Assembly (NCBI RefSeq): GCF_002159975.1
Contig: NZ_NFJR01000006.1
Location: 124,001 to 188,000, forward strand
DNA: 64,000 nucleotides
Origin: Barnesiella sp. An22
GTDB taxonomy: Bacteria; Bacteroidota; Bacteroidia; Bacteroidales; Barnesiellaceae
Direction: 5' to 3'
Notes under the pieces: model-generated
Database searches by the model: none
Seen by the model: the letters and a program-made list of their open reading frames with translations, nothing else
Told to the model about the DNA's origin: nothing
Shown: positions 35,386 through 53,478 of the stretch, piece after piece
How positions within the stretch are numbered: position 1 is the stretch's first letter
How the letters are laid out: each line of letters begins with the position of its first letter
Made by a program: the position numbers and the translations under genes

Positions 35386-36099
35386 TCACAGAATTGCCTT
35401 CAGTTGAGAAAGCTCGGTAACCATATAGTCGGGTTGGGGCCCGGTTACGGGCAGGTTGTCGCGGTTGAAATAGATGGCTCGCCACCCGGCATTCATCGCC
35501 CCCAGAATATCGGCGTCGTAGTTGTCGCCCACAATCACCGTATCGGCAGCGGTGCTCCCCACCACCTGCAAGGCATAGTCGAAGAGCCGGCGGTCGGGCT
35601 TGGTGATGCCTATCTCGTCAGAGAGGATGAGCCGCTTGAAATAGCGATCGATACCCCCCGACTGCAATTTGCGAGCCTGCACTTCGGCAAAGCCGTTGCT
35701 CAGGATGTAGAGCGGGTAGCCCTTGGCCGTGAGGTAATCGAGCAGATCGATAGCCCCCGGCACCAGCGTCTTCTGCTGGGCCAACACATCGAGATAGCGG
35801 TGGTTGAGAGCCATGATGAAGTCCATGTCGCCGCTCAACGCACTGCCCGCCTCACGAAACGGACGGGCAAAACGCTCCACAATCAGGAAATCTTTCGTCA
35901 CCCGATTGTGGTGATACTCCTCCCACAACTCGTGATTAGCCGTCATGTAGAGCTTCTCGAACTGTTCGTAACCGGTAAATGCACGCCCGAGCGAAAACTC
36001 GTCGTACACCTGCCGCAACGACAGTTTGGAGTTGGCCTGGAAATCCCATATCGTATCGTCCAAATCGATAAACAGCGTCTTACACATCAAACCACTCAT
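35386..36099 (-). CDS. yjjG: YjjG-type noncanonical pyrimidine nucleotidase (HAD family)
   Basis: A 237-residue HAD phosphatase. Motif I is DLDDTIWDF (about 11-19), motif II ILSNGF (about 133), motif III KPDRRLFDYAL (about 167), and motif IV GDNYDADILGA (about 194). The helical cap lies between about 20 and 100. YjjG-like enzymes dephosphorylate unusual nucleoside monophosphates and so protect DNA. ATG 36087 (MCKTLFIDL) is an equally good start. A full-consensus promoter lies at 36179-36210. It is convergent with the acetyltransferase gene; the 78-base gap between them shows nothing clear. Confidence 0.9.
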   Translation of the reverse strand: MSGLMCKTLFIDLDDTIWDFQANSKLSLRQVYDEFSLGRAFTGYEQFEKLYMTANHELWEEYHHNRVTKDFLIVERFARPFREAGSALSGDMDFIMALNHRYLDVLAQQKTLVPGAIDLLDYLTAKGYPLYILSNGFAEVQARKLQSGGIDRYFKRLILSDEIGITKPDRRLFDYALQVVGSTAADTVIVGDNYDADILGAMNAGWRAIYFNRDNLPVTGPQPDYMVTELSQLKAIL

Positions 36100-36178: not shown

Positions 36179-36210
36179 CAAAGATAGTGCAAAAAAAGAG
36201 CAGAGACAAA
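36179..36210 (-). promoter_or_regulatory. Consensus promoter of the YjjG-type gene
   Basis: Minus strand TTTG (36207-36210), exactly 20 bases, then TATCTTTG (36179-36186). The segment TTTGTCTCTGCTC and the -7 flank are also found in the promoter at 63580-63611. Confidence 0.8.
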
Positions 36211-36330
36211 CCACGGTCTGCCTCTGCCTGTACAAGCTATCGAAAAATTTTCCCAACTTCCCGATAGAGCCGATTTTATTCGAAATACAGCGTCCCCCTG
36301 TGCAAAGGGGGGAACATTCACACACGTATC

Positions 36331-37332
36331 TTATTTCTCGACAATGGCAAAGCCGTTGCCCACGGCGCGAGGGGTGCCGTCGGAGGGCCGGTTGCGCACC
36401 ACGAACGAGGCCCGGTCGGTTACATTCTCGTCGCGCAGCACCATAATCGAAGAGCCGCCGCCATCGTAGTTCACGGCATCGTAACTGCCTATGCCCCACA
36501 TGAAGTCGGCCAGTTCGTAGATGTCAAGACCTTCGGCATAGTTCACCCGACGGCCGTCGACCACCACGACATAGAGCGTCTGCTTGTCTTCGGAGAGCCC
36601 GATGGCCGTGCGCGGATGCGTATCGCACAGATAGGTACCTATGCTGCTGATGCCGTCGTTGAACACGCCGCGGCGAATGAGACAACCCAGACCGCCCAAT
36701 GCCTGATAAATCTCGGCACTGCGCTTGACCACGTTGCTGGCCACGTCGATGTCAACACTGCCGTCGCGCGTCATATAGACGGTAAACTCGTGATTGGGGT
36801 CCTGCCACCAGTCGCTCAACGGATAACCGTCTTTCCAAAAGAGCTCCTTGGGCTTGATGAGCGTAATCTCTCCGTCCGAAGCCGTTTTGTATACCCAAAA
36901 GCCACCGTTCACCGCCACATGTACCCGACGGCCCGAGTTCTCGAGATACTTGGCCTGCTCGGGAATCGTGTTCACCCGGGTAGGCATCACGTTCACCTCG
37001 CCATAGGGTGTAGTGGTGGCAATGGTCAGTTTCGACAAATCGACCTCGGCCACATAGGCATGTTGCCGGGCCTTGGCCGTGTTGAAGTCAATCTCCGAAA
37101 GCACCAGCCCGGGGAAACGCTCTTCGGTCGTCACCCGCGTTACTTTCGTCACCAAGTCGGTACGACTCAGGATGCGCTGCACCAATACCGACGTCGTGTC
37201 GATAGTTACCGGGTAGGAGGGCGTGTTGTTGCCTGTTCCACCCGGTTCGTCATTTCCGCTGCACGATGTAACACCCAGTGCCACAATCACGCACCAGAGC
37301 CAATACTTGCAATCTTTACCAAACCTTTTCAT
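36331..37332 (-). CDS. Phosphodiester glycosidase (NAGPA/DUF2233) lipoprotein
   Basis: A 333-residue lipoprotein: signal with lipobox VTSC (cysteine about 24) and SGNDEPGG after it. The NAGPA-type domain spans about 95-330: VAVNGGFWV, PRTAIGLSEDKQTLYVVVVDG, and the hallmark NYDGGGSS near 290. This family cleaves sugar-1-phosphodiester bonds; the founding mammalian enzyme removes GlcNAc from GlcNAc-phospho-mannose. A long stretch between residues 45 and 95 is specific. It is the last gene of the SusCD-led cluster, 24 bases after the preceding stop. Downstream (36,211-36,330) is a CCCCC/GGGGG hairpin without a good T run. Confidence 0.85.
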   Translation of the reverse strand: MKRFGKDCKYWLWCVIVALGVTSCSGNDEPGGTGNNTPSYPVTIDTTSVLVQRILSRTDLVTKVTRVTTEERFPGLVLSEIDFNTAKARQHAYVAEVDLSKLTIATTTPYGEVNVMPTRVNTIPEQAKYLENSGRRVHVAVNGGFWVYKTASDGEITLIKPKELFWKDGYPLSDWWQDPNHEFTVYMTRDGSVDIDVASNVVKRSAEIYQALGGLGCLIRRGVFNDGISSIGTYLCDTHPRTAIGLSEDKQTLYVVVVDGRRVNYAEGLDIYELADFMWGIGSYDAVNYDGGGSSIMVLRDENVTDRASFVVRNRPSDGTPRAVGNGFAIVEK

Positions 37333-37356
37333 CTTGTTTTACCTGTTTACAATTAA

Positions 37357-39930
37357 CTATTCGTTTATCAATACTTTAATCACTTTTACCTGTCCGGCCC
37401 GGTCGTGGACATACACCACATACACACCGGCGGGCAACGACGAAAGGTCGACCGGAGTACCCGGCACCGCTTCGCCTTCGATTTGTAAACTGCCCGATGC
37501 GGTATATATTGCGTAGCTTGCCGACGAATTTTCGGACAATACATAAAGCCGATTCTCCGATACATAAAGGTCGAGACCACTGTCGCTCGAGGCCGCCTCT
37601 ATTCCCGACTCGCCGGTATACTCATAGGCACCCACCATCGAGCCGCTCGTGTTGCGCTCCACACCCCGGCCGTCGACCGTCAACTGGTCGGTATACTTAC
37701 CGTTGCCGTCGATGTCGATATAAAAAGACGATTCGCGCAGAGAGGCAGCTTTCAGCACGTTCAGATTGTTGTTGCCGCAAGCGACCGACAGCACCCGCAC
37801 CGTAGGCGCATGGCCACCGTTATCGGTCAATATGGGGCACAGCTTGCCGTCGACCACTTCGCTGTGAAGCATGCCGTTCAGGTCCTGCACGCTGCGGTCG
37901 TAGCTGTAACATACCATATCGCGCGTTTTAGCCGTGATGTTCATCCGGTCGGCAGCACCGTAGAGGTTGTAGGTCGAGGTCATCAGCTTGGCCGAAGTTC
38001 CCAGATAGACCTCGCCGGCCTCGGCAGCCGACGAGAAGTTGCCGGCAATGATGTTGTTGACCAGCTTCACACTACCGGCCATGACATGCACGGCCGAACC
38101 GTTGAAGTTGGCCGAGGGGGTACCGCTGCTCGTGTAGCACGAGTCGGTGTTGCCCGTGATGGTATTGTTGACCAGGTTGAGAGCCCCCGACGCGGCATTG
38201 AAATAGATGGCCGCCCCGCCGTTCGACTTGTCGGAGAGGGCGTTGCTCGTGGCTGTCAACCGATTGTTGACAAAGGTATTGTTGACCCATGTACTGCGGG
38301 TATATATCGAGGTCCCCGTCTGGGTATAGACCCCGTTACGGGCACTCACGTTGCCGGCAATCGTATTGCCCCGCAGCATGGCCAGCACCAGTCCGGCAGA
38401 ATAGGCGGCACTGCCCTGGGTCGCCTGGTTATCCACGAAATAGGAGTCGTCGATGTCGGTACGCCAACCCGGAGTCTGCGAATAGAAGGCCCCACCCTGC
38501 ATGCCCGACTGGTTGCGGGCAAAGGTCGTACGCTCGGCCGTGAGGTTGCCCTCGGTATATATGCCGCCGCCGTAACCGGCTGCATAGTTGTCGGTAATGT
38601 CGACATCGCGCAACACGAGGTCGATGCCTTTCGAATAGATGGCTCCGCCGCTGTTGGCACCCGAGAGGTCGGCATAGCCGCCGGTGATTTCGAGCCCGCC
38701 CAGGTCAAGGAAGCACGAGTCGGCCACCGTCACCACATGACAGGCATTATCGCCGGCCCCCGAAACGATGCGGCCGTCGGGGCCGATTACATCGTTACGA
38801 CCCAGGTCGCCCGAGAGTACCGTCTTGCCCACCACAGCCGAGAAATCGGCATTGTATCCACCCCGAATGTAGACCCCCGTCGAGACATTCATCGTGGCCT
38901 GACGCCCCGTGAGCGAACCCGACTCCACGGGATAAAAAGTACCTTCGGTCATATAGATGGTATCTTGTTTCGAAGCCGCATCGAGAGCCTCCTGCAACGA
39001 AGCGAAGGGAGCCTCTTTCGAGCCGTCGCCCGCACCCGAAGCCGAAGCACTCACATACCACTTGCCGGCCTCGGCACCCTCCTGTAAGGTACAAGTAATG
39101 AGGATAGGCAGGTGATCCGAAGGGGTGACTCCCCGCCCGAAATCCTCGGTTATCGTTTCATAGGACAACACATTCACGCGATTGCAAAAGACATAGTCGA
39201 TAGGCTCACCGCCCGAAAGAGTCGGGTCCCACGGTCCAAACGTGGCACCCGGCCCTACCGGAGCAGATTGTGTCGTCTTGCGACTATCATTAAAATAAGC
39301 ATTAAATGTGTTATACATAGCTTTCTCGTCATAATAGGCATTGAAATCGCCTACGATAAAAGCGGGATAGTCGCCCGCTATCTCCTGCATCTTGCGCACA
39401 TTCAGGCGCGCAGTCTCGGCCCGGGCAAATTCTCCCTTATGGTCGAGATGAGTAGAAAAATAGAAAAAGATTTCGCCCGTTTCCTTATTTTGCAGTTTCA
39501 CCCATACGGTAATTCGCCGCACGGCCGTATCGAACGGCAACCCCGGAGCAGTAGGGTCCTCGGCCAGGAAGAACTGTCCCTTGTCGAGCAAAGTGAACTT
39601 GTCGGCTTTATAGACAACGGTCGTGTGTGTGCCCGAGCGGTTGTCCGAGGCCGAGCCTGCACCCCACGAATGGTTGGCATAGGCATCGCCCAGCAGTTTT
39701 TCGAGATCGGGCAGCATGTCGGTACTGTTCTCTTGGAGACCTATCACATCGAAATCGTGGTCTACGATATTCTTGACCACGTATCCATTGCGCACGTCCC
39801 ACGACTTGTCGCCCGTATCGCTATCGTTTTTGCCTCGTATATTGTACGAGCCCATTTTGTACACGGGCGAAGCCACGAGCACCGAGGCAAAACAGCAGCT
39901 TATCAGCAATCCTAAAAATCTTTTCTTCAT
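37357..39930 (-). CDS. Secreted endonuclease/exonuclease/phosphatase-beta-helix fusion with T9SS tail
   Basis: About 857 residues from ATG 39930 (MKKRFLGLLISCCFAS signal); ATG 39942, one base after the upstream stop, is also possible. Residues 25-285 are an EEP (DNase I-like) metal hydrolase domain: MGSYNIRGKN, DVIGLQENS with the metal-binding glutamate, STHLDHKGEFAR, VGDFNAYYDE, and SDHLPILI. Residues 290-780 form a right-handed parallel beta-helix (repeated GGAIYS, GGGIYTEGN, NNTF, NNTITGN). A T9SS sorting tail follows (GVYVVYVHDRAGQVKVIK). EEP enzymes cut phosphodiester or phosphomonoester bonds in nucleic acids, lipids or sugars. With its neighbours, action on a phosphodiester-linked glycan is likely (inference). 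Confidence 0.88.
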   Translation of the reverse strand: MKKRFLGLLISCCFASVLVASPVYKMGSYNIRGKNDSDTGDKSWDVRNGYVVKNIVDHDFDVIGLQENSTDMLPDLEKLLGDAYANHSWGAGSASDNRSGTHTTVVYKADKFTLLDKGQFFLAEDPTAPGLPFDTAVRRITVWVKLQNKETGEIFFYFSTHLDHKGEFARAETARLNVRKMQEIAGDYPAFIVGDFNAYYDEKAMYNTFNAYFNDSRKTTQSAPVGPGATFGPWDPTLSGGEPIDYVFCNRVNVLSYETITEDFGRGVTPSDHLPILITCTLQEGAEAGKWYVSASASGAGDGSKEAPFASLQEALDAASKQDTIYMTEGTFYPVESGSLTGRQATMNVSTGVYIRGGYNADFSAVVGKTVLSGDLGRNDVIGPDGRIVSGAGDNACHVVTVADSCFLDLGGLEITGGYADLSGANSGGAIYSKGIDLVLRDVDITDNYAAGYGGGIYTEGNLTAERTTFARNQSGMQGGAFYSQTPGWRTDIDDSYFVDNQATQGSAAYSAGLVLAMLRGNTIAGNVSARNGVYTQTGTSIYTRSTWVNNTFVNNRLTATSNALSDKSNGGAAIYFNAASGALNLVNNTITGNTDSCYTSSGTPSANFNGSAVHVMAGSVKLVNNIIAGNFSSAAEAGEVYLGTSAKLMTSTYNLYGAADRMNITAKTRDMVCYSYDRSVQDLNGMLHSEVVDGKLCPILTDNGGHAPTVRVLSVACGNNNLNVLKAASLRESSFYIDIDGNGKYTDQLTVDGRGVERNTSGSMVGAYEYTGESGIEAASSDSGLDLYVSENRLYVLSENSSASYAIYTASGSLQIEGEAVPGTPVDLSSLPAGVYVVYVHDRAGQVKVIKVLINE

Positions 39931-39943
39931 ATTTTTGCCCATA

Positions 39944-42418
39944 TTATTTCGTTATCCATATTTTCTGCGAAACAGATTGGCCGTCGCTTACCACACGCAC
40001 CACATAGAGGCCCACGCCGGGAGCCGATATGCGGTCGCTCTCCCGGGCCAAAGCCACCAGCCCGCCACCGACGTTATACAGTTCGATGCGGTCGGCGGTG
40101 CGGCCCAGCAGCACCGTGCGCCCCTCGACCGTCCAGGCGAGACCGGCATTTGCCACCGACTCGATACCGGACGCATTTTCGTTGTAATAATTATAGATTA
40201 CCTCTACGGCGGGAATCGTCAGGTGATAGGTCTCGCCCAAGGTATTCATATCCAAGCCCAGGGTCAGATACGACAGCGTGATGGGATAGTTGGCCATATC
40301 GATAGTCTCGCCCAGCGCATCGGGGAAAACAATATCGGCCACACTCTCCCGCCCCACTGCCGGAACAGGCAGGTCGACGGTATGCGTCCCCGACGGGGTC
40401 CGCAACGTGCAGGAGAGGCTCTTCATTCGGGCTTCGCCGGGATTGACATGTATGCGCAGCGTATCGGGCAAGCTGTACAACGGGATATTGCCCGACAGGG
40501 TGATGGTCTTGGCCGAAGGACTGTTGTAGAGGAACGAGAGTTCCAGCCCCTTGTCGACCGAATTGGTAACCGAGGTATTCTTGAACCCGGCCGATGTCAC
40601 GAACGACACCCGCATCCAGTCGGCCGAACCGTCGTTCAGGTTCATGCAGTGGCGCACAGGCTCCTGTACTTTCACCAGCAGCGTATCGGTAAATCCCGAC
40701 ATCGAGCCGTAAACCTCGGCCACACCGCTCGCGAGGCCTCTCAAAACGCCTTCCTCAACCACTGCCACCTGTTCGTCGGAGCTGCGCCACGAAAGCATTT
40801 GCGGAGCTATCGATACCTCCTCGCCTTTGAGGTTGGTCATAAATACCTCGACCGGGTAGCGGTAGTGGCAATCGTTGATGACCGAGTCGAGCCGGAAATA
40901 GAGGTCCTCGATATTCTCGCGGATTGAGATTTCCATCTCGCAAGTATAGCCGGCCGGGGTGCGGGCATAGATTTTGCCCTTGCCGCTGCCGTCGGCCACG
41001 AAGCTCTTGCCGTCGGAGGTGATGTGCCCGATACCCTCGTCGCAGGTGAGGGTATAGTTGGTCACTTCGGTACTTATCAATAGGCCGTATGCGTTATAAC
41101 CGTATACCTCGGGGGTATACTCCTCGCCCTTGGCCAGCACATGCGGAGGCGTGGCAAAACCGATGCCCCCGATATAGACCGATCTGGGCGCCGTGGAGAC
41201 CACAAAGACGCCATCGCCCACCTGGCGCTGCACGCCGTTGGAACTGGGGTGATTGCGCACCCCCAGCATGCTGGTATATAGAGTGCTCGAACCGCCGCCG
41301 TCGAGATTCAAGGCTTCGTAAGCCCCGGCATAGCGCATGAGGTCGGCCAGCTCGCGGGTGCGTACACCCCGCGACACCGACGTGCGCCCGTCGCAGACGA
41401 GCATAATCAATGTCTTTTTATCCCGGCTGTATCCGATCGAGGTGCGCGGGTGCCACTCTACGGCATCCTTCCGCTCGTCCTCGGTATCGAGTACGGTACC
41501 GTTCCCCAGTATCTTGGGATTGCCGGTCACCAGATTGTCGACCGGCACCTCCTCGCCATCGAACGACATGGGCAGGTATACCTCTACCTCATCGCCATCG
41601 TTCAGGCTTTGGATAAAGACTCCCGACATGCCTTTCCCGCTGATGACATAGCCGCCGTCGGGCACGGCCATGTTGGTACCCCGGGCCCACGAGCCCGAGA
41701 CTTTCATTTTGCAAGGTTTGCCGGGCACCAGTTTCTCGCCCGACTTGGGCAAAAGGGCAATCTCGTAATACAGCGGAAACGAGTTGCTCGTCACCTGGGT
41801 GACTTGCCCCGGCATTTTATCGGTATAAAGTATCAGTTTGTTGTTTGCGGCGTCGACATTCACCCCCGAAATTTCATAAGATTGAGTAGCCGATGTGATG
41901 GTTCCCGTGAAATCGACCGAGGCGTTGCTCAGGTAAGGGACCTTGTCGGCCGTGATGCCAAAGTGTCGACAAATCGACGAGGTAGAGGTGCGGAATATCT
42001 CGCCCTCGGCCACCGTGGCGTGGTGGGGTCGTCCCACAATACTGGTCTTGCCGTCGTTGGCTTTGCCCGACATGGCGAAGAAACCGCCGTTGATGCCGGC
42101 AAAATAGAGGCTTTCGCCCTCGACGCTGTGACTCTCGGCCATATCGGTCACGGTCTGTGCTCCGGCCAGATGGTCTTTGGCGCACACCGTGCGTATATCG
42201 ACATAGGGATTGGTAAGGTCGACCGTCAGATAAAATACCGTCAAGGTGGTATCGGGGCCTGTGAGCAGCAGCGAGGTCTGGGTAGTTCCCGGCCCTATCT
42301 GGGCATGAAACGTGGTGTCTACCCGATATTCGGTATTCCACACTTTCCAGGTAACCGAAGCAAACGCATTACCGGTCACAAGGGCCAAAAGCAAAAACAG
42401 GCATTTACTTATCTTCAT
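39944..42418 (-). CDS. Secreted phosphodiester glycosidase (NAGPA family) with T9SS tail
   Basis: About 824 residues from ATG 42418, where the signal peptide MKISKCLFLLLALVTGNAFA begins. A NAGPA domain lies at about 60-440: FAGINGGFFA, HPRTSIGYSRDKKTLIMLVCDG, LNLDGGGSSTLY. After it come Big-type Ig-like domains (about 440-600), a beta-sandwich region to about 740, and a T9SS tail (SAPGVGLYVVRVVSDG... KIWITK). It should act outside the cell on sugar-1-phosphodiester bonds. It differs from the smaller lipoprotein paralogue at 36331 in size and export route, so the locus has one secreted and one outer-membrane-anchored enzyme. Confidence 0.87.
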   Translation of the reverse strand: MKISKCLFLLLALVTGNAFASVTWKVWNTEYRVDTTFHAQIGPGTTQTSLLLTGPDTTLTVFYLTVDLTNPYVDIRTVCAKDHLAGAQTVTDMAESHSVEGESLYFAGINGGFFAMSGKANDGKTSIVGRPHHATVAEGEIFRTSTSSICRHFGITADKVPYLSNASVDFTGTITSATQSYEISGVNVDAANNKLILYTDKMPGQVTQVTSNSFPLYYEIALLPKSGEKLVPGKPCKMKVSGSWARGTNMAVPDGGYVISGKGMSGVFIQSLNDGDEVEVYLPMSFDGEEVPVDNLVTGNPKILGNGTVLDTEDERKDAVEWHPRTSIGYSRDKKTLIMLVCDGRTSVSRGVRTRELADLMRYAGAYEALNLDGGGSSTLYTSMLGVRNHPSSNGVQRQVGDGVFVVSTAPRSVYIGGIGFATPPHVLAKGEEYTPEVYGYNAYGLLISTEVTNYTLTCDEGIGHITSDGKSFVADGSGKGKIYARTPAGYTCEMEISIRENIEDLYFRLDSVINDCHYRYPVEVFMTNLKGEEVSIAPQMLSWRSSDEQVAVVEEGVLRGLASGVAEVYGSMSGFTDTLLVKVQEPVRHCMNLNDGSADWMRVSFVTSAGFKNTSVTNSVDKGLELSFLYNSPSAKTITLSGNIPLYSLPDTLRIHVNPGEARMKSLSCTLRTPSGTHTVDLPVPAVGRESVADIVFPDALGETIDMANYPITLSYLTLGLDMNTLGETYHLTIPAVEVIYNYYNENASGIESVANAGLAWTVEGRTVLLGRTADRIELYNVGGGLVALARESDRISAPGVGLYVVRVVSDGQSVSQKIWITK

Positions 42419-42522
42419 GGCACGACAAATCATGGCATTGACAACCGTTTTGAGAAAGATATGCTGCCGGCAAAACACCGGCAGCATACCCGATGAAAAA
42501 ACTACTTAATTAAAGATTCTTA

Positions 42523-44331
42523 TTATTTAATCACTTTGAAGGCTTCGCCATCGACATGAATGATATACACACCCTTGGCGAGCGAAGAGAGATCGATAAC
42601 GTCGTTGGCCGGAACCACCTTCACGACATTTCCGCTCAGGTTGTAGACCGTAGCCTCGGCCCGGGCACCGTTTACCCGGAAGAGGCCGTTACCCAGCGTG
42701 CTGATTGTCAAGCGGTCGGCAACGGTTACATCGGCAATACCCGAAGTGGCGTCGCCGTCGTACGAACCTACACAGGTCGTAGCAGCCCGTTTGTAACCGC
42801 GTTGGTCAACCGTGAGGTCGATATTCTCGGGCAAATTCCATTCGGTCTTCAAGGCATTCAGCTCATCGATAGTCAAGCTCTTCACGGGCGAAACCGGAGC
42901 CAAAGTCTGGCTGAAACCGCCGTTGTCGCCGAAAGTGTTGTCGCCGAAGACATCGGCATAGGTATACGTTTCTCCGTCGGTATCGCTCAGATAGAGGTAG
43001 GTACCTTGTACGATTTTGCCCGTACCGTCGTCATGGTCGTCTTGAACCGAGGGGTCTTGCGTGCGGTCTCTCGGCGAGGCCCAGGAGGTGCAATACCAAG
43101 CCGTACCGGAGAGGTTGTAACCGCCGCTATACCATTTGCCGGGACGGGTATTGTTACTACGGCTCATTAATATAGCAGGATTAGAAGGTGCGGATTCGCC
43201 TAAAACACCATTCACAATATAATTATTCGCCATATAATTGAATCCGCCATAGCTCATTACCCCCAGACCACGACCTACATCCTTTGTAGCATTTTGATTA
43301 CCGGAAACCGTACGAGTTTCTTGTGCAGGGGTATAATCTTTATTAGCGATTGTATTGGAAATCATATACATCGTCGTTCCGGGATAGCCCATTATAACAC
43401 CAAATCCTTCGGTATAGTTATCGGCAACCAAACTGTTCACCAAATAGAGGCGGAGACGCTCGTCATTGCTACCCAAAATGATTGCCGTTCCGCGAAGTTT
43501 ATTGGTATAAGCCGGTTTACCGTCGTCGCCATATTCAGCTTCAGGATAATAGTCGGTCGTAAAATAATTATCGGTAAACTGGCAACGTTGAACCACAGCT
43601 TGCGTCAGATATTCATCTCCTGCATAAGCCGAGCTTATAAACAATCCTAAGGCAGCACCCTTCTCACTAGAAAAGTTTTCTGAAAAGACACAATCAGAGA
43701 TATTTGCCTCAGAAGCAATAAGTGTCAAACCCGATGTTCCGACAAAGGCGGCTCCATTTTGAATAAAGTTACACCATTGCATATCCAAATCGGTATTGAA
43801 CACCATCACCGCCCCTTTATAATTACTGGCACTGTCGTAGTTGCGGAAAGCGTGTTTGAAGGTAAAACCTTTCACCGTCACGTTGATGCGCACAGGCTGG
43901 TCGCCGTCTTTGCGCTCCATATACCACAAGTGAGTGCGGTTACCGGGCACGGCGGCCACATCGCTCTCGATACCGCCCGAAATCACGGTCTCGTAGGGCG
44001 AAGGATAGGTAATATCGGTATTCGTTCCCGTACTGTTGGGGTCGAAACCACCCAGGAAAGTCACACTGCGGTTCACCGACAGATACTTGTCGAAATCGGG
44101 CGAAGAGAGTTTGTAGACACCACCGGCAAAACAGAACACGTCACCATCTTCAAAATTGCCCTGCTCCATGTTCTCGGCAAAATAGTCGTAGTTGATTGCC
44201 TGTTCCCAAGACGAACCATCGGTATCATCCGACCCGTCGGCCTTGATAAAATACGTCGTGGCAAATGTGCTGGGCACCGATGCCAACATAAACCCTGCAG
44301 CAAGCAGGCAAGAAGTCAATTTTCTTTTCAT
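42523..44331 (-). CDS. Secreted right-handed beta-helix protein with T9SS tail
   Basis: About 602 residues from ATG 44331 (MKRKLTSCLLAAGFMLAS; a GTG two codons earlier is less likely). After the signal peptide comes TYFIKADGSDDTDGSSWEQA, the usual opening of Bacteroidetes pectate-lyase-like beta-helix proteins. Parallel beta-helix coils run from about 50 to 430 (VSGGIES, VFNTDLDMQWCNF, VLSFEN-type turns). The tail has GIADVTVADRLTIST and ends GVYIIHVDGEAFKVIK, a T9SS sorting signal. Such helices can be polysaccharide lyases, hydrolases or binding proteins; I see no catalytic set that decides. It is first after susD, separated by a 13-bp hairpin. Confidence 0.83.
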   Translation of the reverse strand: MKRKLTSCLLAAGFMLASVPSTFATTYFIKADGSDDTDGSSWEQAINYDYFAENMEQGNFEDGDVFCFAGGVYKLSSPDFDKYLSVNRSVTFLGGFDPNSTGTNTDITYPSPYETVISGGIESDVAAVPGNRTHLWYMERKDGDQPVRINVTVKGFTFKHAFRNYDSASNYKGAVMVFNTDLDMQWCNFIQNGAAFVGTSGLTLIASEANISDCVFSENFSSEKGAALGLFISSAYAGDEYLTQAVVQRCQFTDNYFTTDYYPEAEYGDDGKPAYTNKLRGTAIILGSNDERLRLYLVNSLVADNYTEGFGVIMGYPGTTMYMISNTIANKDYTPAQETRTVSGNQNATKDVGRGLGVMSYGGFNYMANNYIVNGVLGESAPSNPAILMSRSNNTRPGKWYSGGYNLSGTAWYCTSWASPRDRTQDPSVQDDHDDGTGKIVQGTYLYLSDTDGETYTYADVFGDNTFGDNGGFSQTLAPVSPVKSLTIDELNALKTEWNLPENIDLTVDQRGYKRAATTCVGSYDGDATSGIADVTVADRLTISTLGNGLFRVNGARAEATVYNLSGNVVKVVPANDVIDLSSLAKGVYIIHVDGEAFKVIK

Positions 44332-44380
44332 AACCACTTTGTTTTAGATTAGATTTACTGTTAATTATTGAACTGTAACC

Positions 44381-44414
44381 GGAGAGAAAGAGACTGTACA
44401 ATCTCCTTCTCTCC
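44381..44414 (-). other. Intercistronic stem-loop between susD and the beta-helix gene
   Basis: A 13-bp stem (44381-44393 with 44402-44414, GGAGAGAAGGAGA against TCTCTTTCTCTCC, one G-U) with an eight-base loop. No T run follows on the minus strand, so it is more likely an mRNA processing or stabilising hairpin than a full terminator. It may give higher susCD levels than the distal genes. Confidence 0.6.
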
Positions 44415-44422
44415 GTGATGGT

Positions 44423-46168: not shown

Positions 46169-46187
46169 CGTCGTTCTGTTTTAATCG

Positions 46188-49100
46188 TTAAAATGTAATA
46201 TCCACACCCACCGAGAAGTTACGCGAGTAGCTGTATGCCATACCGGTACCGTCGTTCTGTCCGGCAGCCTCGGGGTCGATATAGAGGGTATGCTTCTTCA
46301 TCGGCGACCAGTACCACAAGTTTTCACCCGTGAAATAGACACGCAATCTGGTAAAGACTTTTTTCAATACCGGCAAGGTATAACCAATGGTAAGGTTTTT
46401 CAACCGCAGGTAAGAGGCATTTTGCAGATAGCGGTCGTTGGCCACGCCCAGCTGACTGGAAGCAAAAGTCTGATAACCACGGAAACGGGGGAAGTATCCA
46501 CCGGGATTCTCCTCCGACCAGCACTGGTCCATAAAGTTGGCCGGGATAAAGCTCGTGAATGCGCGTGCATAGGGGCCCCAGAATCCGGTCGAGAGGTAAT
46601 CGGGGTACCAGTCTCTCTTGCCTACACCTTGGAAGAAGGCGGTAAAGTCAATGCCGTTCCAGTCGGCACCCAAACGGAAACTGTAGCAGTAACGAGGAGT
46701 TTCGTTACCGATAATCTCACGGTCACCCGGGCTGTCGGCAGTCTCGTCACCCTTGCTGATGACATTGTCGCCGTCGAGGTCAATAAACTTCAAGTCGCCG
46801 GCACGGTAGTAAGGATCGACTTTATCGGTGAGGATACGAGTATTCACAGCATCCTGGTTTACCCGCGAGGTATATTCGGCTGCCTCTTCATCGGTAGCGA
46901 ACAAGCCGGCTACACGATAACCCCAAATTTCACCCCACTCCATACCTTCGTAGATGTCGGTCAAGTTCTTTTCGGGGTTGTTATACTTGGTAATAACCGT
47001 TTTGTTATCGCCCAATGTAGCCGAAATGCTATAATTGAAACGCTTGCCCATCAATGCAAACGAGTCGTTCCAGCCCACAGCAAGTTCCCAACCCTTCGTG
47101 CGCAGGTTGGCACAGTTCTCATCGGGTTCTACCGCCCCAAAGACACCGGGCAATACAATCGATTTACCCAGCATACCTTCGGTATCACGAATGAAGTAAT
47201 CGCCTGTGAAATTCAAACGATTGTTGAGGAACGACATGTCGAGACCCACGTTCCAGGTAGCGATGGTCTCCCAAGTCAAGTAACTGGTTTTGGGATTGGA
47301 TACACTGGCATATTGCAACTTCGAGGTTCCATCGAGCGTATAGCTCATGGTATTGCCCGTGAGAATCTCTTCAATATAAGAGTAGTCGTCTACCTCCTGG
47401 TTGCCCAGTTTACCGTATGAGAGACGTATCTTGGTATTGTCAACCACGTCTCGGATAGGCTCCCAGAAACTCTCCTCGCTGATGCGCCAACCGGCCGATG
47501 CCGAGGGAGTGAATACCCAGCGGTGGTCGCTGCGGAAACGCGAAGAACCATCGTAACGGGCACTGGCTTCGAAGAGATAACGGCCTTTGTAATCGTAGTT
47601 CACACGACCGAAGAAACCGCTGTTACGCCACTCGGAGATGGTTTGAGCACGAGTAATATCACCCGTAGCGTTGGCAAAGGTCGACATGTTCTCGTTCAAC
47701 AGAGCCAGCTGCTGCAACTGCAAATAGGTGTTGCGAGAGCCACGATACTGATAACCGGCCAATGCGGTAAAGTTATGCGCCTTGTTCCAGGTGTGGGTAT
47801 AGGTAGCATAGGCATTCAAGTTGTGCTCGTTGGTCTCGTAGTGATTTTCACGATAGTAATCCTTGAAGTTACCGGTAATGATGGTCTTCTCCTCGCCCTG
47901 CTTGTTGGAGTAGTGCAGGTTGTAGTTACGCACCGAGTTGAGACGTTTGCGGTATTTGTAGCCGTAATCGACCGTCAAGACGAGGTCTTTGAAAATATCG
48001 ATGTCGAAGCGGTTGCCTATGATAATATACTTTTGGTTGTTCTGATGGTGCGAACGGTCGTCGACCAGATAGGGCCCGGCACCGTTGAGGGTAGTGTTGG
48101 CATGAGTTTCGGCATAGACCGGCAGTCCCTCGGGAGTCTTGGCCGGCCACGAAGCCATCAAGGTTTTGTCGACCTCCATCAGGGTCGAGTTGATGGTAGC
48201 CAGACCGCTGTATTTATAGGACGAGGAGAAGAAGTTGACATTGGTCGAGTAACGCAACCAAGGTTTAACCTTCACATCGAGTTTGGCGCGGGTCGAATAG
48301 GTGTCGTAGGTATCGGGGGTTACGTTCAAGATACCCTCCTCGCGGTTGTACCGGCCGCTCACATAATATTTCACCCGGTCGTTTCCTCCCCGTATCGAGA
48401 GGTTGTATTCCTGTTGCGGACGGGTTTTGCGGAAGAGATAATGATACCAGTCAAAGTTGGCATAATACCGATACGAACCGTCGTCTTGCAGTACTACCCA
48501 GGGACGCTCGGGATTCTCGGTCTTGTCGTTGCGGCGCTCATACAGCATCTGCATCTCCTCGGCCGTATAGTTGGTAAAGTTGGTAGCATACTGCGAGTAG
48601 TAGGCCTTGTCGACCAGGCTCACCTGATCGTAACCCGAGGTCATATAGTCGGTCGATGTCGTATTCTGCGACCAACCGAACCGGCCGTTGAAGCTTACCG
48701 TAGCTTTGCCGGCCTGGTCGGCACCCGTCTTTGTCGTAATAAGTACAACACCTTTCGACGCGGTAGCACCATAGATGGCGGCAGCCGAAGCATCTTTCAA
48801 AATAGAAACCGACTCGATGTCGTTGGGGTTGACCATATTCAGCTCGGTCACCACACCGTCGACCATAATCAGCGGGGTATTGGACGTAGAGATAGACGAT
48901 ATACCACGAATATTCATCGAATAGCCGCCGCTCGACCGACCCGACTCCATCGTCAGGTTCAACGAAGGATCGGCACCTTGCAGGGCCATGGCCACGTTGC
49001 TTACCGGGCGGGCGTTAATCTCCTTGGCGCTGATGGTTCCCACGGCTCCCGTCAGGTTCACCTTCTTCTGGGTACCGTAGCCCACCACAACCACCTCGTC

Positions 49101-49439
49101 GAGCAGCTGATCGGCATCTTTCATCCTGATAAGAACAAAGTTCTTGCCGTTGACCGAAACATTCTGTTTTTCATAACCGATAGAAGTGACCTCGAGGGTC
49201 GCATCGGAGGGTACGTTTTTCATAGTAAAAGCTCCGTCCACATCGGTCGAACGCCCGATAGAGGTTCCGGCAACCTTGACTACGGCCCCGATAATGGGTT
49301 GGTCATACTTGTCGACCACCTTACCGGACAGCGAATTACCACCTCCAGACTGAGCAAACATCTGTAGACCAGACATCAAGATGATAGCCACCAGCAGGCA
49401 AGCCCATCTTCTGTGCAGTGTGTTTGTTAGTAAATTCAT
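46188..49439 (-). CDS. SusC/RagA family TonB-dependent outer-membrane transporter
   Basis: A 1,083-residue receptor. Signal peptide about 1-29, then a carboxypeptidase-regulatory-like domain (LSGKVVDKYDQPIIGAVVKV), the SusC-typical box DEVVVVGYGTQKK (about 113-126), the plug (about 130-240, NVAMALQGADPSL), and a large barrel. Neither an N-terminal STN domain nor a nearby anti-sigma gene is present, so FecIR-type signalling is not expected. The pair with SusD imports oligomers through the outer membrane. The glpT gene lies 91 bases upstream on the same strand, with only a weak hairpin between them. Confidence 0.96.
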   Translation of the reverse strand: MNLLTNTLHRRWACLLVAIILMSGLQMFAQSGGGNSLSGKVVDKYDQPIIGAVVKVAGTSIGRSTDVDGAFTMKNVPSDATLEVTSIGYEKQNVSVNGKNFVLIRMKDADQLLDEVVVVGYGTQKKVNLTGAVGTISAKEINARPVSNVAMALQGADPSLNLTMESGRSSGGYSMNIRGISSISTSNTPLIMVDGVVTELNMVNPNDIESVSILKDASAAAIYGATASKGVVLITTKTGADQAGKATVSFNGRFGWSQNTTSTDYMTSGYDQVSLVDKAYYSQYATNFTNYTAEEMQMLYERRNDKTENPERPWVVLQDDGSYRYYANFDWYHYLFRKTRPQQEYNLSIRGGNDRVKYYVSGRYNREEGILNVTPDTYDTYSTRAKLDVKVKPWLRYSTNVNFFSSSYKYSGLATINSTLMEVDKTLMASWPAKTPEGLPVYAETHANTTLNGAGPYLVDDRSHHQNNQKYIIIGNRFDIDIFKDLVLTVDYGYKYRKRLNSVRNYNLHYSNKQGEEKTIITGNFKDYYRENHYETNEHNLNAYATYTHTWNKAHNFTALAGYQYRGSRNTYLQLQQLALLNENMSTFANATGDITRAQTISEWRNSGFFGRVNYDYKGRYLFEASARYDGSSRFRSDHRWVFTPSASAGWRISEESFWEPIRDVVDNTKIRLSYGKLGNQEVDDYSYIEEILTGNTMSYTLDGTSKLQYASVSNPKTSYLTWETIATWNVGLDMSFLNNRLNFTGDYFIRDTEGMLGKSIVLPGVFGAVEPDENCANLRTKGWELAVGWNDSFALMGKRFNYSISATLGDNKTVITKYNNPEKNLTDIYEGMEWGEIWGYRVAGLFATDEEAAEYTSRVNQDAVNTRILTDKVDPYYRAGDLKFIDLDGDNVISKGDETADSPGDREIIGNETPRYCYSFRLGADWNGIDFTAFFQGVGKRDWYPDYLSTGFWGPYARAFTSFIPANFMDQCWSEENPGGYFPRFRGYQTFASSQLGVANDRYLQNASYLRLKNLTIGYTLPVLKKVFTRLRVYFTGENLWYWSPMKKHTLYIDPEAAGQNDGTGMAYSYSRNFSVGVDITF

Positions 49440-49495
49440 AATTTTTTTGATTTATGGTTTTTATTAGGTTTTTGAAGTTTCCTTATATCGTCCCG

Positions 49496-49522
49496 AAAAG
49501 CGGCCGGAACCAACTCTCCGGC
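49496..49522 (-). terminator. Weak terminator/attenuator hairpin between glpT and susC
   Basis: Stem GCCGGA/TCCGGC (49503-49508 with 49517-49522), followed on the minus strand by CGCTTTTCGG. The stem is short and the T run has only four T, so read-through from glpT into susC seems possible. No consensus promoter is visible in the 49,440-49,530 gap. Confidence 0.4.
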
Positions 49523-49530
49523 TATCGGGG

Positions 49531-50868
49531 TTATCGACGGTTCACCGCCCTATCCTCTTTGCAAAACAGCATCAGCACCACCGTAACGGCACAGGCCCCC
49601 AGCAGCAGGAAGAAACCTCCATCCCAGCCGAAGTGCTCGAAGACATAGCCCATGCCGATGTTGGCAAAGACGGCCGAACCCAACAGATAGCCGAAGAGAC
49701 CGGTGAATCCGGCAGCCGTACCGGCGGCTTTCTTCGGAACCAGGTCGAGGGCCGAGACACCAATCAGCATCACCGGGCCGTAAATGAGGAATCCGATAGC
49801 GGCCATGGCCACATTGGTCACCGTAGCCGAAGCGCTGTTCCAATAGACATACACGGCCACCATCACCAGCAACATGTAGATGATGGTCACCGGCGAACGG
49901 CGGCCCTTAAAGACCTTGTCGGAGAGCCAACCGCAGAGTATCGTACCAAAAATGCCGGCAATCTCGAAAGCGAAATAGGACCAACTGCTGTTGGCCAAAT
50001 CCATGTGTTTCACCTGCTCGAGATACATCGGCGCCCAGTCGAGTACACCGTAACGCACAAAATAGATGAAGGCATTGGCAAAGGCAATGACCCACAACAG
50101 CTTGTTATTGAACACATGACCAAACAGAATCTCACGGGTAGAGAGTTCCTTCTCCTGTTCGGCCGAATAGGCCTGCATACACTCATCGGGTTTATAAAGC
50201 TCGATGGGAGGCAGACCGCACGATTGTGGAGTGTCGCGTACCAGCAGATAGGCTATGGCCGCTACCCCCACGGCTACGATGGCCGGGAAGTAGAATGCGC
50301 CGGTCCAATTACCAAAAAGGGTGATACCGAAGACAGCCAACGGGGCCATCACCGCACCACCTATATTATGAGCTACATTCCAAATCGACATCTTCACGCC
50401 ACGTTCGCGGGCCGAGAACCAATGCACCATCACCCGTCCGCACGGAGGCCAACCCATACCTTGCACCCAACCGTTTACAAACAAGATGCAGAACATAAAA
50501 AGTATGGAGAGCGAACCGACGCTCCAAGGAATAAGACCCATGACGGTCATTATCACCGCCGAAGCGACCAGACCCAGCGGAATGAACACCCGCGCATTGC
50601 TGTGATCGGAGACGGTTCCCATCACAAACTTGCTGATGCCGTAGGCTATCGAAACTGCCGACAGAGCCCAACCCAAATCGGCCTTGTCGAAACCCATCTC
50701 CTCGAGAGCCGGCATGGCTATCGAGAAGTTCTTGCGTACCAGATAGTAGCCGGCATACCCGATGAATATACCGAGGAACACCTGCCATCTCAACTTCTTG
50801 TACTCCTTGTCGACCTTTTCCTTGGGAAGGGGGTCGATGACGGGAGCCGGTCTGAACAACTTCAACAT
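49531..50868 (-). CDS. glpT: Glycerol-3-phosphate transporter (GlpT-type MFS antiporter)
   Basis: A 445-residue inner-membrane protein with 12 predicted helices of the organophosphate:phosphate antiporter family. Typical sequence: KLRWQVFLGIFIGYAGYYLVRKNFS near the start with the substrate-binding arginine (about 46), WVQGMGWPPCGRVMVHWFS, and ERG in the middle loop. Length fits GlpT (about 450) rather than UhpT (about 463), and pairing with glpD supports glycerol-3-phosphate as substrate. ATG 50868 lies 45 bases after the glpD stop. Confidence 0.9.
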   Translation of the reverse strand: MLKLFRPAPVIDPLPKEKVDKEYKKLRWQVFLGIFIGYAGYYLVRKNFSIAMPALEEMGFDKADLGWALSAVSIAYGISKFVMGTVSDHSNARVFIPLGLVASAVIMTVMGLIPWSVGSLSILFMFCILFVNGWVQGMGWPPCGRVMVHWFSARERGVKMSIWNVAHNIGGAVMAPLAVFGITLFGNWTGAFYFPAIVAVGVAAIAYLLVRDTPQSCGLPPIELYKPDECMQAYSAEQEKELSTREILFGHVFNNKLLWVIAFANAFIYFVRYGVLDWAPMYLEQVKHMDLANSSWSYFAFEIAGIFGTILCGWLSDKVFKGRRSPVTIIYMLLVMVAVYVYWNSASATVTNVAMAAIGFLIYGPVMLIGVSALDLVPKKAAGTAAGFTGLFGYLLGSAVFANIGMGYVFEHFGWDGGFFLLLGACAVTVVLMLFCKEDRAVNRR

Positions 50869-50913
50869 ATTATCCTCTATCTTTTTTTATCCTCTATTCC
50901 TCTTGCGCAACCG

Positions 50914-52482
50914 TCAAGCCAAAATGTAATTCTTGGCCAAACGGGTAAAGGCTTCGACCTGGTCGGCCTCCCACCGTCGGTCCTTATCCATCTCGCGAGC
51001 CATGATCGAGGCCACCCGGGGTGCCATGTCGATAGCGGCGCGGGCATCCATAAAGAGGGCTCTCACCCGGCGGGCCAATACATCCTCGACAGTCTGCGCC
51101 ATCTCTTCACGCACGGCCCACACCACATGAGCCACCCGGAAGGTGTAACCGATATGGAGCAGGTCGCCCAGCGAAGCATCATTCTCAATCATGGCGGCTA
51201 TCTCGTCGGCATCGCTTCCATAGACGTAGTCCCACGTCGAGCGGTCTACCTGCTCGCGATAGCCGTGCAGCCTCATCTTGCACGTCACGCACGGGCGACG
51301 TTCGAGCCCTATCAGTTCGGCCACCTTATCGACCGCATCCTCGGCCATCTGCCGGTAGGTAGTCCACTTGCCGCCGGTAATGGTGAGCATGCCCGAGTCG
51401 GAAACATATATCTTGTGGTTGCGCGAAATCTCTTTCGTCTTTTTGCAATCGCTGTGCGAGGGTGCAGCCAACGGACGCAGACCGGCAAAGACCGACAGCA
51501 CGTCGCTGCGTTTGGGCTTGCGGGTGAGGTATTGTCCGGCCTGGTCGAGAATGAAATCGATCTCCTCGTCGAGCGGTTTGGGCTCGAGCGAATTTTCATT
51601 GAGCGGCGTATCGGTCGTACCCAGCACCGCCTTGCCGTGCCAAGGCACCCCGAAGAGCACCCGGCCGTCGCGGGTCTTGGGAATCATCAGGGCCGACTCT
51701 CCACCCAGAAAGGCGGCATCGACCACGATATGCACCCCTTGACTGGGGCGTACCTTCTTGCGGCTCTCGGGCTTGTCCATCTGCATGATGTCGTCGACAT
51801 ACACGCCGGTGGCATTGACCACCCCTTTCACATTCACTTCGTAGGTACCGCCCTCGAGCGTATCCTCCAGAACGGCCCCCCGAATCTTGCCCGAAGGGTC
51901 CTTGAGCAGCGAAGTCACCTTCATATAGTTGATGCACACGGCTCCGTGATCGGCAGCACTCTGCATGAGCGTAATGGCCATGCGCGAATCGTCGAACTGT
52001 CCGTCGTGATATACCACACCGCCGCGCAGGTGGTCGTGCAGCAGACCCGGCAGCTCCTTCAACGTCTGTTTCTTCGACAGCGGCAACGAACGTCCCAAAC
52101 CCAGCCGGCCGGCCAGGAAGTCGTAGCAGCACAACCCAATCGTGTAGAACGGCTGCTCCCACCAACGATAATTGCCTATAATGAAACGCATGTCTTTCAC
52201 CAGATGCGGAGCATTACGCCACAGGCGACCACGCTCGTGCAAAGCCTCGATTACCATCGATATATCGCCCTGCCGCAAATAACGCACCCCCCCGTGCACC
52301 AGCTTCGTACTTCTGCTCGAAGTAGCTTTGGCAAAGTCGTGTTGTTCAACCAATAAGACACGATAGCCTCGACTCGACGCATCGACTGCCACGCCCAGCC
52401 CGGTGGCTCCGCCTCCTATCACCAACAAATCCCATGGTCTCTTTTCCTCGGCCATCTCTTTTATCAAGCCCTTACGTTTCAT
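50914..52482 (-). CDS. glpD: Glycerol-3-phosphate dehydrogenase, FAD-dependent
   Basis: About 522 residues from ATG 52482 (MKRKGLIKEMAEEKRPW); ATG 52455 is another option, while the longer frame to 52548 uses TTG. The FAD-binding motif DLLVIGGGATGLGVAVDASSRG is near the N-terminus, followed by KATSSRSTKLVHGGVRYL, typical of GlpD. The C-terminal DAO_C domain begins near 380. The enzyme oxidises glycerol-3-phosphate to dihydroxyacetone phosphate at the inner membrane and passes electrons to quinone. It is first in a unit with glpT and is divergent from a DeoR-type regulator; TTTCGTTT operators overlap its promoter. Confidence 0.95.
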   Translation of the reverse strand: MKRKGLIKEMAEEKRPWDLLVIGGGATGLGVAVDASSRGYRVLLVEQHDFAKATSSRSTKLVHGGVRYLRQGDISMVIEALHERGRLWRNAPHLVKDMRFIIGNYRWWEQPFYTIGLCCYDFLAGRLGLGRSLPLSKKQTLKELPGLLHDHLRGGVVYHDGQFDDSRMAITLMQSAADHGAVCINYMKVTSLLKDPSGKIRGAVLEDTLEGGTYEVNVKGVVNATGVYVDDIMQMDKPESRKKVRPSQGVHIVVDAAFLGGESALMIPKTRDGRVLFGVPWHGKAVLGTTDTPLNENSLEPKPLDEEIDFILDQAGQYLTRKPKRSDVLSVFAGLRPLAAPSHSDCKKTKEISRNHKIYVSDSGMLTITGGKWTTYRQMAEDAVDKVAELIGLERRPCVTCKMRLHGYREQVDRSTWDYVYGSDADEIAAMIENDASLGDLLHIGYTFRVAHVVWAVREEMAQTVEDVLARRVRALFMDARAAIDMAPRVASIMAREMDKDRRWEADQVEAFTRLAKNYILA

Positions 52483-52591
52483 TTTCTTATCTTTCAATTT
52501 TTGATTTCTTATCAACCTTCGCGATTCTACTTTCTTTTCGTGATACAAAGAAAATAAAAAAGGATAGATAAAACAAGAAAATATGTGTATA

Positions 52592-52635
52592 TTTTTCGTT
52601 TCGTTTTCGTTTCAAAGATATTTCATTTCGTTTTC
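52592..52635. promoter_or_regulatory. DeoR-type operator repeats at the glpD promoter
   Basis: Two clusters of TTTCGTTT-type direct repeats (52592-52613, TTTCGTTTCGTTTTCGTTTC; and 52621-52635, TTTCATTTCGTTTTC) flank a minus-strand TATCTTTG box (52613-52620). DeoR-family regulators such as E. coli AgaR bind repeated TTTCRTTT elements, and a DeoR-family gene begins 80 bases away. Binding by that protein is inference. Confidence 0.6.
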
Positions 52636-52655
52636 AAAAATATTTATCTATATTA

Positions 52656-52687
52656 TTTGGGCTTTATTCAAATAAATTTTATATTTG
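52656..52687 (+). promoter_or_regulatory. Consensus promoter of the DeoR-family regulator gene
   Basis: Plus-strand TTTG (52656-52659), exactly 20 bases, then TATATTTG (52680-52687). The start codon is 27 bases downstream. Confidence 0.8.
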
Positions 52688-52713
52688 TCGTATAAATACA
52701 TTATATAATATAT

Positions 52714-53478
52714 ATGCTCAGTATTGCAGAACGACACAAATACATTCTCGACAAGCTCAATTCCCAAGGATTTGTAAAGGTTCTGGACATCGCCCGCGAA
52801 CTGGACGTAACCCCCGTTACCATACGAAAAGACCTGAAGCTGCTGGAAGAAAAGAAACTTTTGTTCCGTACGCACGGGAGTGCCAGCCCGGTGAATCCCC
52901 ATACGGCCGACATCAATATCCACATCAAAGAGCGTATCAACAGCGAAGCCAAGCGGCGTATCGCCCACAAAGCCATCAAACTGATCGAGCCCAACGATTC
53001 GATTATCGTGGCCTCGGGCAGCACCGTCTACGCCTTTGCCGAAGAGATTACCGACGACTTGAACCTGACGGTGGTCACGGCTTCGCTCAACGTATCGACC
53101 CTGCTCAACCGGTTTGAGCATATCCATGTGATTCAGTTGGGCGGGACACTGCGCAAAAGCTCCTTCTCGGTGATTGGCGACCTGGCCACTCACGCCTTCG
53201 ACAACCTCACCTGCTCCAAGCTCTTCATGGGTGTCGACGGCATCGACCTCGACTATGGTCTCACCACCTCGAACATCGACGAGGCCCGACTCAACCAACG
53301 CATGATTGCCGCTTCGCTGCGCACCATCGTACTGGCCGACTCGTCCAAGTTCGGCAAACGGGGTTTCGGAAAAATCTGCACCCTCGACCAGGTCGATGTC
53401 ATCGTTACCGATTCGGGCATCTCGCCCTCGATTGCCAAGAGTATCGAAGAGGCCGGTATCGAATTGATTATTGCCTGA
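52714..53478 (+). CDS. DeoR/GlpR family transcriptional regulator
   Basis: A 254-residue regulator. The N-terminal DeoR helix-turn-helix (about 5-57) reads HKYILDKLNSQGFVKV, then LDVTPVTIRKDLKLLEEK. The C-terminal DeoRC sugar-phosphate sensor domain (about 75-235) has VASGSTVYAFAEE, TVVTASLNV, and LFMGVDGID. Divergent orientation from glpD-glpT and the TTTCGTTT repeats between them indicate that it represses glycerol-3-phosphate genes, with a sugar or glycerol phosphate as inducer. Whether it also controls the SusCD cluster beyond glpT is open. Confidence 0.92.
   Translation: MLSIAERHKYILDKLNSQGFVKVLDIARELDVTPVTIRKDLKLLEEKKLLFRTHGSASPVNPHTADINIHIKERINSEAKRRIAHKAIKLIEPNDSIIVASGSTVYAFAEEITDDLNLTVVTASLNVSTLLNRFEHIHVIQLGGTLRKSSFSVIGDLATHAFDNLTCSKLFMGVDGIDLDYGLTTSNIDEARLNQRMIAASLRTIVLADSSKFGKRGFGKICTLDQVDVIVTDSGISPSIAKSIEEAGIELIIA

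Follow-up and report, generated by a model that had tools for sequence, protein, structure and literature searches.

Among described systems, the closest in kind to the one reported here appear to be the phosphate utilisation systems (PUS) of Flavobacterium, built on PusCD pairs (PMC8115612; PusCD is also named in PMC8812569). As they are described there, a SusC-SusD pair adjoins phosphodiesterases or phosphatases and not ordinary glycoside hydrolases. A block of genes with this arrangement lies in the stretch of Barnesiella sp. An22 DNA that we analysed (64,000 nucleotides, positions 124,001 to 188,000 of contig NZ_NFJR01000006.1, numbered C53 here, in a genome of 3.35 Mb; hereafter the window): a SusCD pair is co-located with one EEP-domain gene and two NAGPA (phosphodiester glycosidase family) genes, and relatives of the pair are likewise placed beside such enzymes. 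Whereas the Flavobacterium systems are reported to be induced by phosphate depletion (PMC8115612), the operon of the window is linked to a DeoR-family regulator, GlpD and GlpT, and it has NAGPA proteins. We consider it likely that this is a glycerol-3-phosphate (G3P) operon supplied by SusCD and by secreted phosphodiester-cutting enzymes, which would act on a polymer or glycoconjugate in which sugar and glycerol are joined through phosphate. As a prediction from gene content, the harvest of G3P from phosphodiester material is well supported, and it is strengthened because both GlpT and this branch of SusCD are recurrently linked to phosphodiester hydrolases.

Gene identities were taken from Pfam and NCBIfam profile searches of the window proteins, and every gene that the sequence-only reading had placed in the block was found where, and on the strand, it had been placed. 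On the minus strand follow glpD, encoding an FAD-dependent G3P dehydrogenase (50914-52482; DAO 1.5e-53, DAO_C 1.5e-20); glpT, a G3P transporter of the major facilitator superfamily (49531-50868; TIGR00712 at 639 bits, exceeding the cut-off of 632.55); susC, a TonB-dependent outer membrane transporter (46188-49439; TIGR04056 at 873.5 bits, above the cut-off); susD, a surface lipoprotein (44423-46168; PF07980 8.8e-49); a protein secreted by the type IX secretion system (T9SS), probably a beta-helix (42523-44337; Por_Secre_tail); a large NAGPA protein (39944-42487; PF09992 1.1e-29); a fusion of an EEP domain (2.1e-16), beta-helix-like POMP/Chlam_PMP repeats and a T9SS tail (37357-39942); and a small NAGPA lipoprotein (36331-37332; PF09992 5e-28). 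The glpD models of NCBIfam score under their cut-offs (e.g., 309 against 360 bits), and the ATG at 52482 is a likelier glpD start than a longer TTG start at 52548. From glpD to the small NAGPA gene the intergenic gaps measure 45, 91, 19, 85, 35, 1 and 24 bases, a close packing on one strand that would fit a single transcription unit. Beyond glpD, on the plus strand, lies the divergent gene of a DeoR/GlpR-family regulator (52714-53478; DeoRC 4.8e-51).

The block has the neighbouring susC and susD homologs (TIGR04056, PF07980) of a SusCD-type polysaccharide utilization locus; NAGPA and EEP are present as candidate polymer-degrading enzymes, and glycoside hydrolase and lyase families are not. The Pfam scan gave zero matches to glycoside hydrolase or polysaccharide lyase families among the block proteins, which bears out the sequence-only reading on this point too. 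A glp transporter and dehydrogenase adjoining a DeoR-family regulator is the arrangement of a DeoR/GlpR glp regulon, and it is kept in two other genomes of the genus (G003 and G007). Because the best NCBIfam match of the regulator, AgaR, scores 224 bits against a cut-off of 260, its family does not fix its ligand.

How far is this gene order conserved? The family was sampled as one genus of nine genomes, three of which (the window genome, G003 and G007) share the full order, with proteins 70 to 98% identical; given this recurrence, the order is not a matter of chance. A scan of genome contigs with the EEP protein gave one locus (L040), whose contig equals G007:C4 in length, so that it most likely represents G007 again and not an additional genome. 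In G003 and G007 the susD ortholog (84% and 97% identity, respectively) has DeoR, GlpD, GlpT, SusC, beta-helix, large NAGPA, EEP and small NAGPA neighbours, and the DeoR orthologs, 95 to 96% identical, keep their position. Five of the other six genomes have a different GlpT (54 to 57% identical) in a DeoR/glpA-glpB-glpC-glpT-GDPD cluster, in four cases with a porin O/P gene after GDPD (assigned by Pfam in G002 and by BLAST elsewhere, at 91% in two genomes and 32% in G008); in G006 the contig stops inside GDPD. No GlpT was found in G004 at E <= 1e-60. The source genome itself has three GDPD genes in all, each on a contig other than that of the block. The shared operon and the sister clusters sit in unlike genomic surroundings, and in a tree of GlpT (G007 not included) the proteins of the window and G003 fall outside the well-supported clade of the sister species. 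Because surroundings and clade both differ, the operon appears to have been acquired independently, on the same functional plan as the sister clusters: an outer-membrane route, a phosphodiester enzyme, GlpT, a G3P dehydrogenase and DeoR.

GlpT is uncommon: in the order, 24 of 392 genomes encode it at E <= 1e-90, 19 of them from outside the genus, and in a phylum sample 8 of 392 do so at E <= 1e-120. We examined 27 GlpT regions from outside the genus (20 from the order and 7 from the phylum sample, the window's own excluded), in which GDPD was sought by BLAST, Pfam and home-made hidden Markov models (HMMs); several regions end at contig edges, so that linkage counts are lower bounds. GlpT has a GDPD gene nearby in at least 11 of the 20 order regions and in all seven phylum regions (Pfam, 5/7; HMM, 7/7), and a porin O/P homolog occurs in five order regions. 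The sequence-only reading had named linkage of the glp genes to SusCD in relatives as a check on itself. The check did not go against it: that linkage was found in all three genomes with a SusCD at least 84% identical; with other SusCD pairs, susC and susD stand directly beside GlpT in one order region (L071) and, just upstream of GDPD and GlpT, in three phylum regions (L111, L112 and L113), a minority of GlpT regions. The gene order in L112 is GlpD-SusC-SusD-DUF5689-metallophosphoesterase-GDPD-GlpT-GDSL, with DeoR adjoining. As a separate observation, L071 combines SusCD by GlpT with GH13, GH31 and two metallophosphoesterases, and L080 has the order GH31-GlpT-[metallophosphoesterase+GDPD]; with GlpT by GH31 and a metallophosphoesterase or GDPD, both are candidate loci for alpha-glucosylated glycerophosphate polymers.

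The SusCD branch has phosphodiester hydrolases of its own. Of 392 order genomes, 10 contain susD relatives at E <= 1e-130, and the nearest from outside the genus, 43 to 56% identical, form nine loci in seven genomes. In seven of these nine loci the cluster includes a gene for an EEP, GDPD or metallophosphoesterase protein, compared with 1 of 15 other SusC loci of the source genome, around which the same HMMs were applied within about 8 kb (Fisher p = 0.0007; a NAGPA gene at control region C1:568667 was counted on neither side, and the S1/P1 nuclease family was not part of the control search). At L139, where no phosphoesterase gene was seen, the contig ends 1.4 kb past susD. In-genus SusD relatives at about 46 to 50% have one or two EEPs in all four loci examined. 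The one of these four that lies in the source genome itself, a paralogous SusCD locus (L035; C5:56400-72000), contains GH20, GH89 (NAGLU), two EEPs, GDSL and a BD-FAE-type esterase, and from this content it is a candidate locus for an ester- and N-acetylglucosamine (GlcNAc)-decorated phosphopolymer.

Several points weigh against the proposed function. Nine of the 20 order GlpT regions, some of them short contigs, lack GDPD, and neither NAGPA nor EEP was found in any of the 27 outside regions at E <= 1e-5, so that the link between NAGPA and the glp genes is drawn from one genus. In the comparison of SusC loci, the control is one genome and the relatives are spread over seven different ones; part of the HMM training set consisted of loci that the models then found, with Pfam confirming six of the seven; the EEPs of L135 are assigned from 52% BLAST matches to a Pfam-typed protein of contig C5; and the 15 control regions include two truncated ones (L151, cut by a contig end, and L156). 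Cleavage of sugar-1-phosphodiesters by the NAGPA proteins of the block is predicted by analogy with the mammalian reaction. For the EEP domain, a monoesterase role is as conceivable as the cleavage of phosphodiesters because one of its nearest solved relatives, 4c1r, is a monoester phosphatase by name. A hairpin-like stretch in the 91-bp glpT-susC gap makes separate expression of the two halves of the block possible.

Could the operon serve to scavenge organic phosphorus, in the manner of PusCD, drawing phosphate, and not glycan carbon, from nucleic acids, lipid head groups or similar phosphodiesters? We think this unlikely. Two neighbours speak for it: an S1/P1 nuclease gene follows susD in the closest relative outside the genus (L131, 56%; a NAGPA protein is encoded 2 kb upstream on the opposite strand), and an Endonuclease_NS (DNA/RNA non-specific endonuclease) gene lies at 55546-57279, 2 kb past DeoR in the window. 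However, the operon is tied to DeoR and GlpD, and GlpD burns the carbon of G3P; moreover, NAGPA is not known to act on nucleic acids or on the usual head groups of lipids. The Flavobacterium systems also count in favor of scavenging: SusCD pairs induced by phosphate depletion are reported there to adjoin phosphodiesterases or phosphatases, and a table in the same report lists an EEP protein with signature IPR011050, although as an orphan gene outside any SusCD cluster and with a small change (1.15) (PMC8115612). Polygalacturonase-homologous lipoproteins are described among the phosphate-regulated proteins, a point of resemblance to the operon (PMC8115612). We take both polygalacturonase homology and IPR011050 to stand for a beta-helix fold.

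The large NAGPA, which likely starts at internal Met 24, retains the HPRT, DGR and NLDGGGSS motifs of the conserved NAGPA core, and printed alignments to the NAGPA structures 6pku, 6pky, 6pkg and 6pki have RTxxG, DG and NxDGGGS in common; the matches of these structures to the NAGPAs of the block reach 21 to 30 bits and cover part of the domain only. The closest solved structure to the small NAGPA is 3ohg, a DUF2233 protein of unknown function (1.4e-39), which at 139.5 bits is far closer than the 6pku-type structures. The EEP protein carries NIR, GLQE, THLDH, GDFN, IDYVF and SDHLP stretches, which we take to be the usual EEP motifs, and the three nearest solved relatives of its EEP domain are 3g6s and 3mpr (putative EEP proteins) and the mannosyl-6-phosphatase 4c1r (1.6e-30). 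For the protein at 42523-44337, Pfam gave the sorting tail alone and no catalytic family; its repeat-like sequence and short BLAST matches of the G007 ortholog to the EEP/helix protein indicate that it is probably a beta-helix. AlphaFold models built from three-row alignments were of low confidence (mean pLDDT, 31.9 for the beta-helix protein and 35.4 for the large NAGPA).

These enzymes would also suit a phosphomannan-like glycan with sugar-1-phosphate-6-mannose units, which NAGPA would uncover and EEP would strip of the 6-phosphate, with glpD and glpT as passengers. The mammalian NAGPA (uncovering enzyme) cleaves GlcNAc-alpha-1-phosphate-6-mannose at the sugar side, i.e., at the anomeric C-O bond, and this chemistry, together with 4c1r among the relatives of the EEP domain, favors such a substrate. 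Yet Pfam detected neither a mannosidase nor any other glycoside hydrolase among the block proteins, glpDT is accompanied by SusCD in each of the three genomes that have them, and GlpT is linked to SusCD again elsewhere, with different SusCD pairs; we regard a phosphomannan locus as improbable. That the glpDT and SusCD blocks are chance neighbours, brought together by insertion and serving unrelated pathways, is very improbable: the block was probably acquired, with its GlpT clade unlike that of the sister species and its different surroundings, and adjacency in three related species could be inherited, but outside the genus GlpT-GDPD linkage recurs, SusCD lies by GlpT in 4 of 27 regions and the SusCD branch is phosphoesterase-linked even without GlpT proper.

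We return to G3P harvest and ask which material could be its source. SusD and SusC would capture and take up fragments of a polymer or glycoconjugate that joins sugar and glycerol through phosphate. On a sugar-1-phosphate-glycerol unit, NAGPA would yield free sugar and G3P directly; on a sugar-1-phosphate-6-sugar unit, it would leave a 6-phosphate, which the EEP domain could remove; alternatively, NAGPA might free a wall polymer from peptidoglycan. GlpT would then swap G3P for phosphate into the cytoplasm, where GlpD would make dihydroxyacetone phosphate, and the DeoR protein would derepress the operon on the appearance of its phosphorylated ligand. In this scheme, enzyme specificity, step order and ligand are what we infer.

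For the polymer we also infer a glycan containing glycerophosphate, for example wall teichoic acid or a poly(glycosylglycerol phosphate) capsule. Teichoic acid is a plausible substrate, and the linkage in relatives points to teichoic-acid-like polymers as a food of these bacteria. In the block Pfam found neither an enzyme of GDPD/GlpQ or PhoD type, which a locus for teichoic acid utilisation would be expected to have, nor a metallophosphoesterase; the absence of such a depolymerase makes it less likely that plain poly(glycerol phosphate) is the only substrate and favors a polymer bonded through sugar-1-phosphate. Stereochemistry narrows the choice further, since GlpT and GlpD handle sn-G3P. 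Wall teichoic acid is described as sn-glycerol-3-phosphate, in which alpha-glucose may be a decoration, and lipoteichoic acid as sn-glycerol-1-phosphate, left uncut by the G3P-specific GlpQ while intact; wall teichoic acid is bound to C6 of N-acetylmuramic acid via a glycosidic phosphodiester from the N-acetylmannosamine-GlcNAc linker (PMC7086022). Lipoteichoic acid was marked down as the main substrate since its glycerol-1-phosphate units fit less well, and wall-type or glycosylated polymers are likelier. The proposal of the sequence-only reading that the locus takes glycerophosphate from teichoic or lipoteichoic acid is thus supported as to G3P from a phosphodiester substrate, given the comparative linkage; teichoic acid itself stays hypothetical, with lipoteichoic acid the poorer fit.

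We tentatively propose, as one possible way of life, that a gut-type Bacteroidales feeds on glycerophosphate polymers from the walls or capsules of other bacteria via this SusCD operon, its NAGPAs cutting sugar-1-phosphate bonds (including the GlcNAc-1-phosphate anchor of wall teichoic acid), replacing the GDPD of the sister species and either yielding G3P or releasing the polymer. If this is true, Bacteroidota would have a broader group of G3P-harvesting SusCD loci, as yet without a name, of which the NAGPA operon would form one branch. Much of the Gram-positive envelope consists of glycerophosphate polymers, which could be a large source of food in the gut.

The divergent promoter region between DeoR and glpD (52483-52713) has four TTTCGTTT repeats, at 52594, 52599, 52605 and 52626, which are candidate DeoR operators by consensus match, not proof; the orthologous regions of G003 and G007 have three each, and four sister species have none or one. 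Promoter-like TAnnTTTG boxes lie at 52642 and 52620 on the minus strand between DeoR and glpD. A terminator-like hairpin with a 13-pair stem and a T tail (36199-36228, minus strand) stands 3' of the last gene, and no such site was found in the inter-gene gaps on the operon strand; the scan overall found 13 sites against 16.5 in shuffles, i.e., no excess, and a sigma-70 promoter scan did no better (15 against 14.6). The glpT-susC gap (49440-49530) contains a hairpin-like stretch, and inspection by eye shows one in G003 and G007 too; the susD-beta-helix gap (44338-44422) has another, as it does in G003. These stretches, whose letters differ, might set relative expression.

Beyond the terminator-like hairpin, on the same strand, a promoter-like TTTG/TAnnTTTG match precedes a HAD-family hydrolase gene (35386-36099), which neighbours the locus in G003 and G007 too. 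On the other side of the block, 53599-55221 encodes a T9SS protein of 540 amino acids (aa), which matches a 2425-aa open-ended reading frame of G007 only at that frame's C-terminal end (residues 1874-2414); the rest of that frame has no match in the window, and its G003 counterpart measures 2719 aa. The source genome contains ten NAGPA genes above the Pfam cut-off, six of them within three SusCD clusters. The small NAGPA gene at C1:568667 sits directly behind a susD gene, and a second SusCD locus on the contig of the block, outside the window (C53:72346-91000; L001 and L002), has a PKD protein, GHL10 (glycosyl-hydrolase-like 10) and three large tandem NAGPAs; GHL10 with one to three NAGPA genes occurs again in G003, G004, G005, G279 and G045. 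The recurring linkage of GlpT to phosphodiesterases, in several cases with SusCD, provides concrete candidates for assay and could give a role to bacterial NAGPA proteins.

In the titles and abstracts of the best-ranked open-access literature we found no SusCD-glp locus, NAGPA locus or teichoic acid use by Bacteroidota, which is not proof of novelty. Two parallels were considered and rejected: XanP of the xanthosan system, examined as a sugar-phosphodiester enzyme, is described as a 2H phosphoesterase, not an NAGPA, and B. subtilis ShfP as a calcineurin-like enzyme, with NAGPA mentioned there merely as a fusion partner. GlpQ and PhoD of Bacillus subtilis resemble the operon in that glycerol phosphate is released from a wall polymer, but they are described in Gram-positive self-digestion and belong to other enzyme families (PMC7086022, PMC11488536). 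The glpABC-glpT-GDPD-porin cluster of the sister species (L031-L034 and L039) combines DeoR-linked G3P uptake and oxidation, an outer-membrane route and a phosphodiester hydrolase, as the operon does, but has porin O/P for SusCD, GDPD for NAGPA/EEP, GlpABC for GlpD and a GlpT of another clade. The loci L111, L112 and L113, from another Bacteroidota family, share SusCD, phosphodiester hydrolases and GlpT with the operon, and L112 also GlpD and DeoR; they differ in that their SusD is of the SusD-like_2 Pfam family and their hydrolase is GDPD (in L111 and L112 also a metallophosphoesterase), NAGPA/EEP not being found. Relative to PusCD, what is new in the operon is NAGPA, seen beside GlpT in one genus only, and the joining of the same architecture to DeoR, GlpD and GlpT.

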